Source: a virus
Length of the DNA stretch: 41,099 bases
Virus record (IMG/VR): IMGVR_UViG_3300042340_000269
Coordinates: 1-41,099 of that record
Reading direction: 5' to 3' (one strand)
Shown: positions 36,229 to 39,697 of the stretch, in pieces
Numbering within the stretch: the first letter of the stretch is position 1
Layout: every line of letters begins with the position of its first letter
The notes under the pieces: model-generated
Seen by the model: the letters and a program-made list of their open reading frames with translations, nothing else
Database searches by the model: none
Told to the model about the DNA's origin: nothing
Translations under genes and position numbers: made by a program

Positions 36229-37781
36229 GACCGGCCTCCTTTCGACTCACCGCGAAACCCGCCCTTGCTCACCGGCGCACCGCGACCGCGGCCACCGCGC
36301 GGATCTTCCGGCGGGGGTGCCTTGGCGCGCTCGGTGTTGAGTTCCGAATCGTTAATGTCGTAAAAACACGTCAGGTTACGCTTGAACCAAAATTCCCGGT
36401 GCCCCGTGCGCCCGTTGTTGTGCTTGGCCTGCACCAGCTCGACCATCACTTGCGCTTGATTCGGGTCTTGATCCTGCCCGCGCATATCCTTGTCGGGGGT
36501 GTGAATGAAAATCATGCGCCGCGCGGCCTGCTCGATCTCGCCCGAGTCGCGCACATCGTGCGGCTCCGGCCGGCGATTGCCCCCGCTGCTCCGCGCCGAG
36601 CGGTTGAGCTGCGCGAGCACCAGCCCGGTGCGGTTGTGACGCTTGAAACACCGCGCGAGCAATTTGGAAATATAGCCAAGCTCGGCCTCCCGCTTGTTGA
36701 ACTTCTGCTCGGCGTTCATAAGGTGCAGATGATCCACGACGATCAGATCCGGCGCGCCCAAGCGCCGGGCGTGGTTGTCCATGCGCGCCACGAGCAACTC
36801 GGCCGGGATATGTTCGTCGTAAATCCAGAGGCTTTTGCCCACATAGCCGTGCAACTCGCGGAGCGTCGTTTCATACTTCGCGCGCTTGTCGGCCGGGAGA
36901 CGGTCCAGACTCCGCGCGTCGATCCCGCACACGACGCACGCCGCATTTTCCAGCCAGAGCGCGAGCCCCGTTTCGAAAAGAAACAACACCGCCGTCTTTC
37001 CCTGGCGCAGATTGTTGACGACGATTTGCCGCGCGAGGGACGACTTTCCGCCGGCCTGGAACGCGCCGAGAATCACCAACCAATCCTCGTTGTTGGCATC
37101 CAGCGCGCCAAAGCGTTCGTCAAACTCGCGCAACCCGGTAAACAGCCAGCGCGATTTGTCCACCTTCCCGTCGAGCTTGGCCAACGTGCGATCCAGCGCC
37201 GCGCCGGCCGCGTCGCCCATCGTGACTGCATCGGAGCGCAGGCTTTCCAGCGCCCGCGCGATCCACGCGCTCTTGGTCTCCAACTGCGAGGCGAGTTCCT
37301 CGCCGCCCCCGGTGTTGCCATAGCACGCCTCGACCGCCGCCGAAAACTCGCGGATCACCCCGCGCATCGCCCACTGGTCGCGCACGACGCGGGCAAAATA
37401 CTTGGCCTGCGCAATGGTCGGCGCTTTGTCGATCAGCCGCGAAAGCCCGGCAAACCCGCCCACGGTATCGAGCTGCCTTTGCGCCTTTAGCTCCTCGGCG
37501 ATGCACGCCAAATCGCACGGCTGGCCGCGCCGATAGAGCTGCTCGGCCACCTTAAAAATCAGCCCGTTGCCCGCGACGTAGAACGACTCCGCGCAGAGCT
37601 TGAACTTGTGGCACTCGCGCATCACCTCCGCGCCATCGAGCATGATGCAGCCCACAAGATGCTCCTCCGCCTCGACGGAGTGGGGCGCGGTGCGCCCGGT
37701 GAACTGCGCAGGGCGAGCGATGCTATCGCCGGAGCGATCCAGGGAGAATTCGTGCGAGTCTGATTTGAGGGATGGGTTCAT
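36225..37781 (-). CDS. dnaB: replicative DNA helicase, DnaB family
   Basis: Protein of 518 aa. N-terminal DnaB domain (about 35-140: ..APHSVEAEEHLVGCIMLDGA..). RecA-like ATPase: Walker A region ILGAFQAGGKSSLA (about 237-250), Walker B PDLIVVDHLHLM (about 344-355), motif H4 TGLVLAQLNR (about 385-394) and DVRDSGEIEQAAR (about 409-421), typical of DnaB. The C-terminus is Gly/Arg-rich and disordered. It unwinds DNA at the phage fork; a replication initiator/loader-like gene lies two genes upstream. ATG 37781 is chosen for its ATGA overlap with the methyltransferase stop; an ATG six codons earlier also exists. Confidence 0.92.
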   Translation of the reverse strand: MNPSLKSDSHEFSLDRSGDSIARPAQFTGRTAPHSVEAEEHLVGCIMLDGAEVMRECHKFKLCAESFYVAGNGLIFKVAEQLYRRGQPCDLACIAEELKAQRQLDTVGGFAGLSRLIDKAPTIAQAKYFARVVRDQWAMRGVIREFSAAVEACYGNTGGGEELASQLETKSAWIARALESLRSDAVTMGDAAGAALDRTLAKLDGKVDKSRWLFTGLREFDERFGALDANNEDWLVILGAFQAGGKSSLARQIVVNNLRQGKTAVLFLFETGLALWLENAACVVCGIDARSLDRLPADKRAKYETTLRELHGYVGKSLWIYDEHIPAELLVARMDNHARRLGAPDLIVVDHLHLMNAEQKFNKREAELGYISKLLARCFKRHNRTGLVLAQLNRSARSSGGNRRPEPHDVRDSGEIEQAARRMIFIHTPDKDMRGQDQDPNQAQVMVELVQAKHNNGRTGHREFWFKRNLTCFYDINDSELNTERAKAPPPEDPRGGRGRGAPVSKGGFRGESKGGRS

Positions 37782-38779
37782 GAGGTTAAAAGTTTCCATG
37801 CGAGCGCCGCCACTGCCGGCACTTGTCCATTGCCGAGGCAGCGCAATCGGTCCACCCGAGCGGCCACCCCATGAGCCACTCGACCCACGTTGGGTTCAGA
37901 CTCCCACCATGTGACGCCATCACGTTGTGATCCAGTCGGTCGTTGACTCGGCTCCGGCCGCTCTTGCGCGTGAGGGAGGCTGGGCTTGATCCTTTGCTCA
38001 TGCAGGCGGTCGGGGTCGGGAAAATCTTTACCTGAGCGCTTAGTTTTGGTTCGCCCCTGCTGTTCACTTTCCCCCGCACTCGATCCACCGCATCGTCCGC
38101 CACTGGCGTTTGCCACATTTTCACCGCCGTTGCCAGCCCATCCCCCGAAGTCGGAGAAAGCCCCTTGCGGTTGTAGTTCCCGCAAACCGTGATCGTAGGC
38201 CAAAGATGAGGGACTCTTACCACTACGCCAAGCCCCGGCGAATCCCGATTCAATCCCGCTTTCAATCCTTCCCGGTCCTGCGCTCTTGGCGTGGGCCACA
38301 ATCCAGATTCGGTCTCGTTTGTGAGGTGCGCCGGCATCGACTGCGCCGAGCACTCCCCAGCGCGCATCATACCCCATCGCGGCCAAGTCTCCGAGAACTC
38401 GTCCAAGCCCGCGAGAAGTGAGGACTGGGGAGTTTTCCACGAAGCAGTATCGCGGTCCCACCTCGCGAATGATTCGGGCCATGTGCGCCCACATTCCGCT
38501 GCGCTCTCCGTTGATTCCTGCGCCCTTTCCGGCTGCGCTGATGTCTTGACAAGGGAATCCGCCCGAAACCACGTCAACAACGCCTCGCCAAGGTCGTCCG
38601 TCAAAGGTTTGCACGTCGTCCCAGATCGAAAAGGCTTCGAGGGAGCCGTCGTTTTGCCGTGCGAGCAATACGTCGCGGGCGTATCCGTCCCACTCGACAG
38701 CGCACACGGTTTTCCACCCGAGGAGTTTGCCGCCGAGTATGCCGCCACCAGCGCCTGCGAAAAGTGCCAGCTCATTCAT
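37778..38779 (-). CDS. dcm: DNA (cytosine-5) methyltransferase
   Basis: Protein of 333 aa. Motif I LALFAGAGGGILGGKLLGW (about 4-22) binds AdoMet; motif IV GGFPCQDIS with catalytic Cys77; motif VI ENS (115-117); motif VIII KRDRIWIVA; C-terminal VDRLRCLGNGQVP (motif X-like, about 305-320). The target-recognition part between motifs VIII and IX is short. It methylates cytosines in phage or host DNA, most likely to escape restriction, complementing ArdA. No cognate endonuclease gene is seen, so it is an orphan. A second frame through the same DNA also reads as a conserved phage phrase (see 37786-38775). Confidence 0.92.
   Translation of the reverse strand: MNELALFAGAGGGILGGKLLGWKTVCAVEWDGYARDVLLARQNDGSLEAFSIWDDVQTFDGRPWRGVVDVVSGGFPCQDISAAGKGAGINGERSGMWAHMARIIREVGPRYCFVENSPVLTSRGLGRVLGDLAAMGYDARWGVLGAVDAGAPHKRDRIWIVAHAKSAGPGRIESGIESGFAGAWRSGKSPSSLAYDHGLRELQPQGAFSDFGGWAGNGGENVANASGGRCGGSSAGESEQQGRTKTKRSGKDFPDPDRLHEQRIKPSLPHAQERPEPSQRPTGSQRDGVTWWESEPNVGRVAHGVAARVDRLRCLGNGQVPAVAALAWKLLTS
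37786..38775 (-). other. alternate-frame ORF through dcm (329 codons)
   Basis: Open frame offset by one base from dcm on the same strand, starting at ATG 38775 inside ATGAATG at the dcm start. Its translation contains phrases that recur in database phage proteins: LDEFSETWPRWGMMRAGECS, repeated WPT/FPTP motifs and LNPTWVEWLMGWPLGWTD. These are read from the DNA that encodes dcm motifs ENS onward and VDRLRCLGNG. It may be genuinely dual coding or just a conserved shadow of conserved dcm DNA. It has no own ribosome binding site. Kept apart from the CDS list because expression is unproven. Confidence 0.35.
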
Positions 38780-38809
38780 TTGGTCGGGTTGCGATTCATG
38801 GTTTGCCCC

Positions 38810-39697
38810 TCACAGCCGCCCCGCCGCCTGCTTCGCATTTTTTTCGTCCACGAACCGGAGCCACTGGGTCGCCCGATCGACCTCCCCGGCAAAGTTGTTG
38901 AGCAGGGTGAGCACGTCGCGCCGGCGGAAATCGGCGGAGTCGTCCGTCGTGCGCCAAAACTCGCGGAGCGCCGAGGCCGAAGCCTCGTAATACGCGGCGA
39001 GCGGCACGATCTGCGCCTCAAAATCCTCGTCGGGGATCTCGTGCAGCCCCACGGCCTTGAACGCGGCAAACTCCTTGGCCGTCCACGACGTGCCGGCACC
39101 CCGGCGTTTGAGCGCGTTGATCGCGAGCATCCGGTGCGCGAGGAGGTCGGATTGCTGGGAGGGGATGAACGAGTGCGTGTGCTTGGTGCGCTTGGGTGGA
39201 TCGTCCTTGAGCCCTTCGTCGTCACCGCCGTCAGGCGTTTGGGTATCCTTTCCTTTCCCTTCCTTTCCCTTCCCTTCCCTTCCTGTCGTCTCAGGTGTTT
39301 CCCCGGTGTTTCCCTGTTTATCCTCGGGCGTTTCATCGGTCGTATAAACGGGAGCCAAAACCCTTTCGGGGAACTGTGCGGGAAACTTGCTTGGTGTCTC
39401 AGCCTCCTTGCCGGTGATGCGCTGATGCTTTCGGAAGTTGTTAATCTGAATAAGGTTCAACTCGCCACTCGTGTAGCGGGTGATGAAGCGTTTTTGCGTG
39501 AGCACATCGAGCGCCGCGACCACATCGCATTTGTCGTAAGGCAAGACCTCGGCCTTGATGCGGGCGGGTCGATCTTCCAAACGGCCCGCACAATCGGCGA
39601 CACACCACAGGCCGACGAAAAGGATGCGAAGCAGCGGCGGAAGCTCCGCCAACTCGTCATGTTTGAAGAACTCGGGCTTGATTGTGCGGATTCTCAT
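38810..39697 (-). CDS. phage replication initiator-like protein (O-type)
   Basis: Protein of 295 aa. The N-terminal domain (about 1-95) starts RIRTIKPEFFKHDELAELPP, then ..LLRILFVGLWCVADCAGR.. and ..LNLIQINNFRKHQRI.., a winged-helix family widespread in phage replication modules. A low-complexity charged linker (about 120-170) is encoded by a homopurine tract on the coding strand (39246-39284). The C-terminal region (about 180-295) is helical. By position before dcm and dnaB it probably binds the origin and/or loads the helicase. Confidence 0.8.
   Translation of the reverse strand: MRIRTIKPEFFKHDELAELPPLLRILFVGLWCVADCAGRLEDRPARIKAEVLPYDKCDVVAALDVLTQKRFITRYTSGELNLIQINNFRKHQRITGKEAETPSKFPAQFPERVLAPVYTTDETPEDKQGNTGETPETTGREGKGKEGKGKDTQTPDGGDDEGLKDDPPKRTKHTHSFIPSQQSDLLAHRMLAINALKRRGAGTSWTAKEFAAFKAVGLHEIPDEDFEAQIVPLAAYYEASASALREFWRTTDDSADFRRRDVLTLLNNFAGEVDRATQWLRFVDEKNAKQAAGRL
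39246..39284. repeat. 39-nt homopyrimidine tract, origin candidate
   Basis: A run of only C and T on the plus strand, built from CCTTT and CCCTT units, in the linker of the replication-initiator-like gene. It encodes the EGKGKEGKGK repeats. Mirror-repeat homopurine/homopyrimidine DNA can form triplex or unwind easily, and lambdoid phages place their origin within gene O. Origin function here is inference. Confidence 0.5.

Follow-up and report, generated by a model that had tools for sequence, protein, structure and literature searches.

Interleaved reading frames of a phage C5-cytosine methyltransferase gene probably encode two subunits of one enzyme

Split C5-cytosine methyltransferases are already known as such, and one of them, M.EcoHK31I, with which its isoschizomer M.EaeI is grouped, has a small subunit that is encoded in an overlapping frame. 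The multispecific phage C5-methyltransferases of the SPbeta group, which are single-chain enzymes encoded in a single frame, contain several short recognition modules that can be exchanged. Naturally two-polypeptide C5-methyltransferases, M.AquI and M.EcoHK31I, have been described (PMC3404938). M.EcoHK31I has motifs I-VIII and X on the larger polypeptide and motif IX on the smaller, and its recognition domain is described in the larger subunit; M.AquI is split after motif VIII, and its smaller polypeptide carries motifs IX and X (PMC3404938). The C-terminal helix of C5-methyltransferases folds back onto the large domain (PMC5944983). In the literature searched, whose coverage is incomplete, no description of phage methyltransferases in overlapping frames was found.

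The window analyzed here, a stretch of 41,099 nucleotides of viral DNA, contains a C5-methyltransferase gene on the minus strand, with one open reading frame in frame 0 (alpha) and another in frame +1 (beta). Its features are as follows, the pairs being disjoint pairs of relatives in which each locus is used once.

38779 to 37778, minus strand: frame-0 ORF (alpha), 333 aa; Pfam PF00145 DNA_methylase, 1.3e-30; phrog_363, 8e-68
38775 to 37786, minus strand: frame +1 ORF (beta), 329 aa; phrog_1008 'DNA methyltransferase', 7e-31
38773 to 38779, minus strand: paired starts in ATGAATG, the ATG of alpha at 38779-38777 and that of beta at 38775-38773
38300 to 38779, minus strand: catalytic part, codons 1-160; constraint mainly in frame 0, 72/72 pairs
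38356 to 38454, minus strand: doubly constrained stretch, alpha ..ENSPVLTSRGLGRVLGDLAAMGYDARW.., beta ..SWKTPQSSLLAGLDEFSETWPRWGMM..; near-frozen four-fold sites
37903 to 38304, minus strand, read in +1: target-recognition region; 61/61 pairs; cassettes in varied order elsewhere
37849 to 37899, minus strand, frame +1: motif-IX-like LNPTWVEWLMGWPLGWT (EPNVGRVAHGVAARVDRL in frame 0); 69/70 pairs; aligns with actinophage beta genes
37781 to 37837, minus strand, frame 0: motif X LGNGQVP and C-terminal helix; position-3 profile in 67/72 pairs; helix pLDDT 93

Beta starts 4 nt inside the alpha ORF (ATGAATGAG), and the stops of the two frames are 8 nt apart. The initial annotation had reported a 329-codon +1 ORF within a C5-methyltransferase gene, and this is confirmed, on the minus strand and with a start 4 nt downstream; the peptides that it quoted are exact, the same DNA reading EPNVGRVAHGVAARVDRL in frame 0 and NPTWVEWLMGWPLGWT in +1. 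Besides phrog_1008, beta matches the profiles phrog_27243, phrog_26627 and phrog_35493, and no Pfam family was matched in a Pfam search of its translation. When the codons of the window gene alone were shuffled synonymously with the frame-0 protein fixed, the 329-codon run survived in 0.36% of the shuffles. Among the other genes of the window, none has a +1 run that extends over its whole length, and open runs of about 200 codons arise by chance elsewhere in the window.

Two neighboring genes touch the locus. A DnaB-like helicase gene begins (ATG at 37799, or at 37781 as an ATGA overlap) before either methyltransferase frame has ended (37778-37799), and given this start a few of these bases may be read in three frames. 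The upstream replication-initiation gene (38810-39697) has a 215-codon +1 run too, which overlaps an ORF at 38776-39336 on the minus strand whose TGA abuts the beta ATG; no family match was found, and the run is likely due to chance.

In alpha, the match to PF00145 (1.3e-30) covers residues 4-166, and the SAM-binding and catalytic motifs I, IV (PCQ), VI (ENx) and VIII, as well as motif X (LGNGQVP) on the catalytic domain, are present in frame 0. The earlier statement that the main frame has every C5-methyltransferase motif holds for motifs I-VIII and X but not for motif IX, whose look-alike LNPxWVEWLMGxPxGW is in the +1 frame. The AF2 model of alpha has a pLDDT of mostly about 90 at residues 1-165, of 36-49 at 168-302 and of 93 at 320-333, a C-terminal motif X helix being predicted at 319-332 (pLDDT 93), and in Foldseek the model matched HhaI (2e-13) and also HaeIII. 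Alpha is thereby predicted to be a large domain with motifs I-VIII and X, in which a disordered linker of about 135 residues takes the place of the small domain. Most, not all, members of the family have the recognition domain and motif IX on the catalytic chain; alpha lacks both and is therefore classed as a split C5-methyltransferase, like M.AquI and M.EcoHK31I.

Because the alternate codon begins one base later, position 3 of frame +1 corresponds to position 1 of frame 0. Between close relatives, codons 1-159 differ mostly at frame-0 position 3, the stretch between codon 160 and motif X differs mostly at position 1, and from motif X onward position 3 prevails again. The expected position was dominant in 72/72 disjoint pairs for the N-terminal part, 61/61 for the recognition region, 69/70 for motif IX and 67/72 for motif X, and the bacterial-genome set alone, in which pairs are not disjoint, gave 867/868, 133/138, 726/774 and 512/577 in the same order of segments. 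As protein, codons 1-160 and motif X are constrained mainly in frame 0 and the recognition region and motif IX mainly in +1, so that each frame in part shadows its partner. Of the two possibilities raised by the initial annotation, real dual coding or a frame shadow of dcm, the comparative data strongly support dual coding, but in an asymmetric form in which each frame is partly a shadow. Four-fold sites of alpha are near-frozen at codons 108, 114, 118, 120, 126, 133 and 136 (0.00-0.13, compared with 0.5-0.69 at many others), and those of codons 10 and 68, which overlap conserved beta residues, are almost frozen as well. Since these frozen sites lie over conserved beta residues, part of the N-terminal half of beta, mainly about residues 105-140, is constrained as protein.

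The relatives compared comprised 176 non-redundant loci, 109 of them viral and 67 further ones from bacterial genomes. The viral contigs yielded 54 methyltransferase loci and at least 599 loci for the alternate protein, and both frames span the gene in nearly all of the 134 loci kept. The expected number of stops was obtained by synonymous shuffling of the codons of one frame and counting the stops in the other, with related loci treated as separate. In the first 160 codons, 13 alternate-frame stops were found versus 420 expected (11 versus 272 in the 109 viral loci, 2 versus 148 in the 67 bacterial-genome loci), and in the recognition region 23 frame-0 stops versus 441 expected (13 versus 332 and 10 versus 109, respectively). 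Ten of the 13 viral frame-0 stops belong to a single locus, L040, and 8 of the 10 in the bacterial-genome set to L173. Although kin were counted as separate loci, the deficit is large and was replicated in a distinct locus set. Breakage of the alternate frame in close relatives had been named beforehand as the mark of a mere shadow; when this was examined no breakage was seen, and the shadow reading was not upheld. The stop counts, together with the start codon and the actinophage control described below, indicate that both frames are under selection beyond chance, as in an overlapping gene pair. Three loci (L129, L134 and L032) have a lone frame-0 stop in the recognition region, with +1 open and motif X still in frame 0, and these stops are unexplained by a two-chain model except as decay, error or frameshift. 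A prophage copy in E. coli PCP07014 (L149:3001-3762), annotated as a pseudogene, has both frames stopped at codon ~122.

The second start codon is also under selection. When codon 2 of alpha is Asn, it is AAT in 83 cases and AAC in one, whereas elsewhere in the N-terminal part of the same genes AAT occurs 85 times and AAC 194 times, and only AAT among the Asn codons creates the beta ATG; when it is His, it is CAT in six cases and CAC in none. The beta ATG is retained while the alpha start varies among ATG, GTG and TTG. A beta-frame stop lies directly before the beta ATG in 131/140 loci, as follows from the sequence NTGAATG. In 56 of those 131, an upstream ORF of at least 60 codons ends there, compared with 19/262 in other frames within 60 nt, and because of this excess a coupling of termination and reinitiation at the beta ATG is possible.

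Ahead of motif IX, each locus has one to five cassettes of the WPTPxA type, which are conserved in the +1 frame only, and the same cassettes occupy different order positions between phages. The beta of the window phage has four of them, LWPTPRAQD.., LWPTITVCGNYNRKG.., WQTPVADD.. and FPTPTACMSKGSS... The segment that follows resembles the canonical motif IX pattern of C5-methyltransferases, LTPRECARLxGFP. Comparison of the beta profile with actinophage second genes by hhalign (98%, 2e-13) aligned LNPTWVEWLMGWPLGW to L..FaEWMMGWPeGW. The proteins of these second genes match phrog_1008 and also the C-terminal part of the full-length methyltransferase phrog_116 (779 positions), in which gp79 of phage Rebeuca matches 424-489 and the window alpha matches the catalytic part, 212-382. 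This homology through phrog_1008 and phrog_116 and the resemblance to motif IX suggest, at the level of sequence, that beta corresponds to the small domain. The AF2 model of beta alone had no confident fold (mean pLDDT 58) and no PDB match by Foldseek, and PDB profile searches with beta and with the actinophage second genes gave no methyltransferase match. In a phmmer search, beta also hit a Q-beta minor capsid protein fusion (1e-4); the hit is confined to one short stretch, plain capsid entries scoring only about 0.1, and was dismissed as chance.

Actinophage relatives (Samy, Chickaboom, Rebeuca and contigs L267-L278) served as a control. In pairs such as Streptomyces phage Samy gp49/gp50 and Mycobacterium phage Rebeuca gp80/gp79, frame 0 holds the catalytic half, +1 holds the recognition region together with motif IX, and the second gene is phrog_1008, as in the window. 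Unlike in the window, the two genes lie side by side with partial overlap, +1 being open from about codon 20-85, often with GTG at codon 86/87; the second gene carries motif X, and alpha terminates shortly beyond motif VIII, in most of contigs L267-L278 near codon 166. The substitution profile has one switch, at codon 160, and the non-coding halves are unconstrained: 30 alternate-frame stops were found versus 20.7 expected in codons 0-94 and 46 frame-0 stops versus 47.8 expected past the end of alpha, whereas codons 95-157, inside beta, had 0 versus 7.7. Since openness is constrained only within the translated parts, the method is calibrated by this class, which also ties beta to the enzyme. 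A further link is provided by L034, L037, L038 and L040, where motif X has moved into the +1 frame behind an insertion of about 120 residues, giving a beta ORF of 479-617 codons. In L040, frame 0 is decayed after motif VIII, with stops at the expected number (10 versus 10.1); because motif X is in +1 there, the alpha frame is not needed in the recognition region and stops accumulate.

The same organisation was found in a distantly similar second E. coli prophage methyltransferase (e.g. WP_001213770), with QLNPAHSRWLMGLPPEW in +1. Copies of this second family in E. coli prophages (L148:3043-4029, L232-L237) have WPTP cassettes and LNPAHSRWLMGLPxEW in +1 and the same position switch, and their beta frame is not open before codon ~10-40, which would place the start of beta internally. 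In actinobacterial prophage contigs L262-L264, motif IX is in frame 0 of an ORF of about 310 codons and cassette-like LPTP phrases remain in +1 (L262); these are perhaps natural re-fusions by compensating indels.

Compared with the described systems, the window gene is like M.EcoHK31I in that alpha has motifs I-VIII and X and beta has motif IX, but its recognition region is in the beta frame (61/61 disjoint pairs) and not in the larger subunit. It also differs in the start-to-stop overlap with starts 4 nt apart, the occurrence in phages and the shuffled cassettes. With M.AquI it shares the division of a C5-methyltransferase into two polypeptides with motif IX in the smaller, but motif X of the window gene is in the catalytic chain; motifs IX and X together in the smaller subunit were found only in L034, L037, L038, L040 and the actinophages, and the M.AquI layout is matched by L040 and the actinophage class. 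Several exchangeable modules, putative specificity determinants here, are shared with the SPbeta group, from which the gene differs in its two-frame split. Start-to-stop interleaving, a recognition domain in the second frame, shuffled cassettes and wide phage occurrence were not found described in the literature, of which the coverage is incomplete.

The best reading of alpha and beta is as subunits of a single enzyme and not as unrelated proteins. The window frames divide along the domain boundary of C5-methyltransferases. Two chains from nearby ATGs are the simplest account, and computation gave a switch of constraint, selection for openness in both frames and for the beta start, and a predicted alpha fold that lacks the small domain. 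With a probability of roughly 0.8, then, the gene encodes a heterodimeric C5-cytosine methyltransferase of the M.EcoHK31I/M.AquI kind with its two subunits interleaved from start to stop. Frame 0 would give alpha, the SAM-binding and catalytic large domain with motifs I-VIII and X, and +1 would give beta, the small domain, which comprises motif IX and between one and five exchangeable recognition cassettes. Translation would begin at either of the two start codons 4 nt apart, and the two chains would assemble into one enzyme; the half of each chain opposite the domain of its partner would be mostly filler, which needs only the absence of stops. From the same data we infer that beta is translated and that an assembled, active dimer would methylate the DNA of the phage or prophage at one target or several, its biological role probably being protection against host restriction.

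The main rival to this reading is programmed frameshifting, in which ribosomes would shift to +1 past motif VIII (codon ~160) and back again ahead of motif X, so that a single chain results with the recognition domain and motif IX inserted into alpha. The coding frame does change sharply at exactly these two points, the resulting order of motifs I-VIII, TRD, IX and X is the canonical one, and those few loci whose recognition region has a frame-0 stop would remain functional. However, two efficient shifts would be required, and the unused halves would not need to be open, yet they are (11 versus 272 and 13 versus 332 stops). Moreover, selection acts on the beta ATG at alpha +4, and the halves are separate genes in the actinophage class, so that frameshifting appears unlikely.

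It is less probable still that beta is a separate protein with no part in the methyltransferase reaction, such as an anti-restriction factor. Such a protein would fit with the lack of Pfam or PDB matches of beta and with the annotation of the +1 ORF alone, as 'hypothetical protein', in some phages, but it would leave frame 0 without a recognition domain and motif IX, and it is at odds with the move of motif X to the beta frame in L034, L037, L038 and L040 and with the homology of beta, via the actinophage second genes, to the C-terminal part of the phrog_116 methyltransferases. Hardly any credence is left for the notion that translation is confined to the methyltransferase frame, the conserved +1 phrases arising merely from dcm conservation and GC-rich codons. 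Most alternate residues in the N-terminal half do follow from the conserved alpha protein, and this GC-rich genome has chance open runs of about 200 codons elsewhere in the window; yet the alternate frame is the conserved one in the recognition region (61/61 disjoint pairs) and motif IX (69/70), stops are strongly avoided, and the actinophage negative control behaves as expected. A pure frame shadow is contradicted by the position profiles, the bacterial-genome replicate, the actinophage control and the disjoint pairs, and a chance open frame due to GC content is ruled out by codon permutation and the actinophage negative control.

Under the heterodimer reading, it is likely that one stretch of DNA carries both obligate subunits of the enzyme, with starts 4 nt apart and a recognition subunit built from cassettes, in hundreds of phages and prophages, where they are annotated singly and not as a pair. 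Acinetobacter phage ABMM1 and Salmonella phage S9-5 have the frame-0 ORF of this gene annotated, whereas for Pseudomonas phage phPA-G and for Vibrio phage 1.291.O it is the +1 ORF, and the 'hypothetical' protein conserved among phages probably constitutes the missing half of a methyltransferase rather than a reading-frame ghost. If this is true, the 'DNA cytosine methyltransferase' entries of this phage family, which have no recognition domain, would need correction, as would the phrog_1008, 26627, 27243 and 35493 proteins, which would be the missing half, and cloning or prediction of specificity from a single frame would fail. The locus would also be an unusually long and well-supported same-strand gene overlap in phages, and one with an intelligible reason, each frame carrying one domain of the same enzyme.
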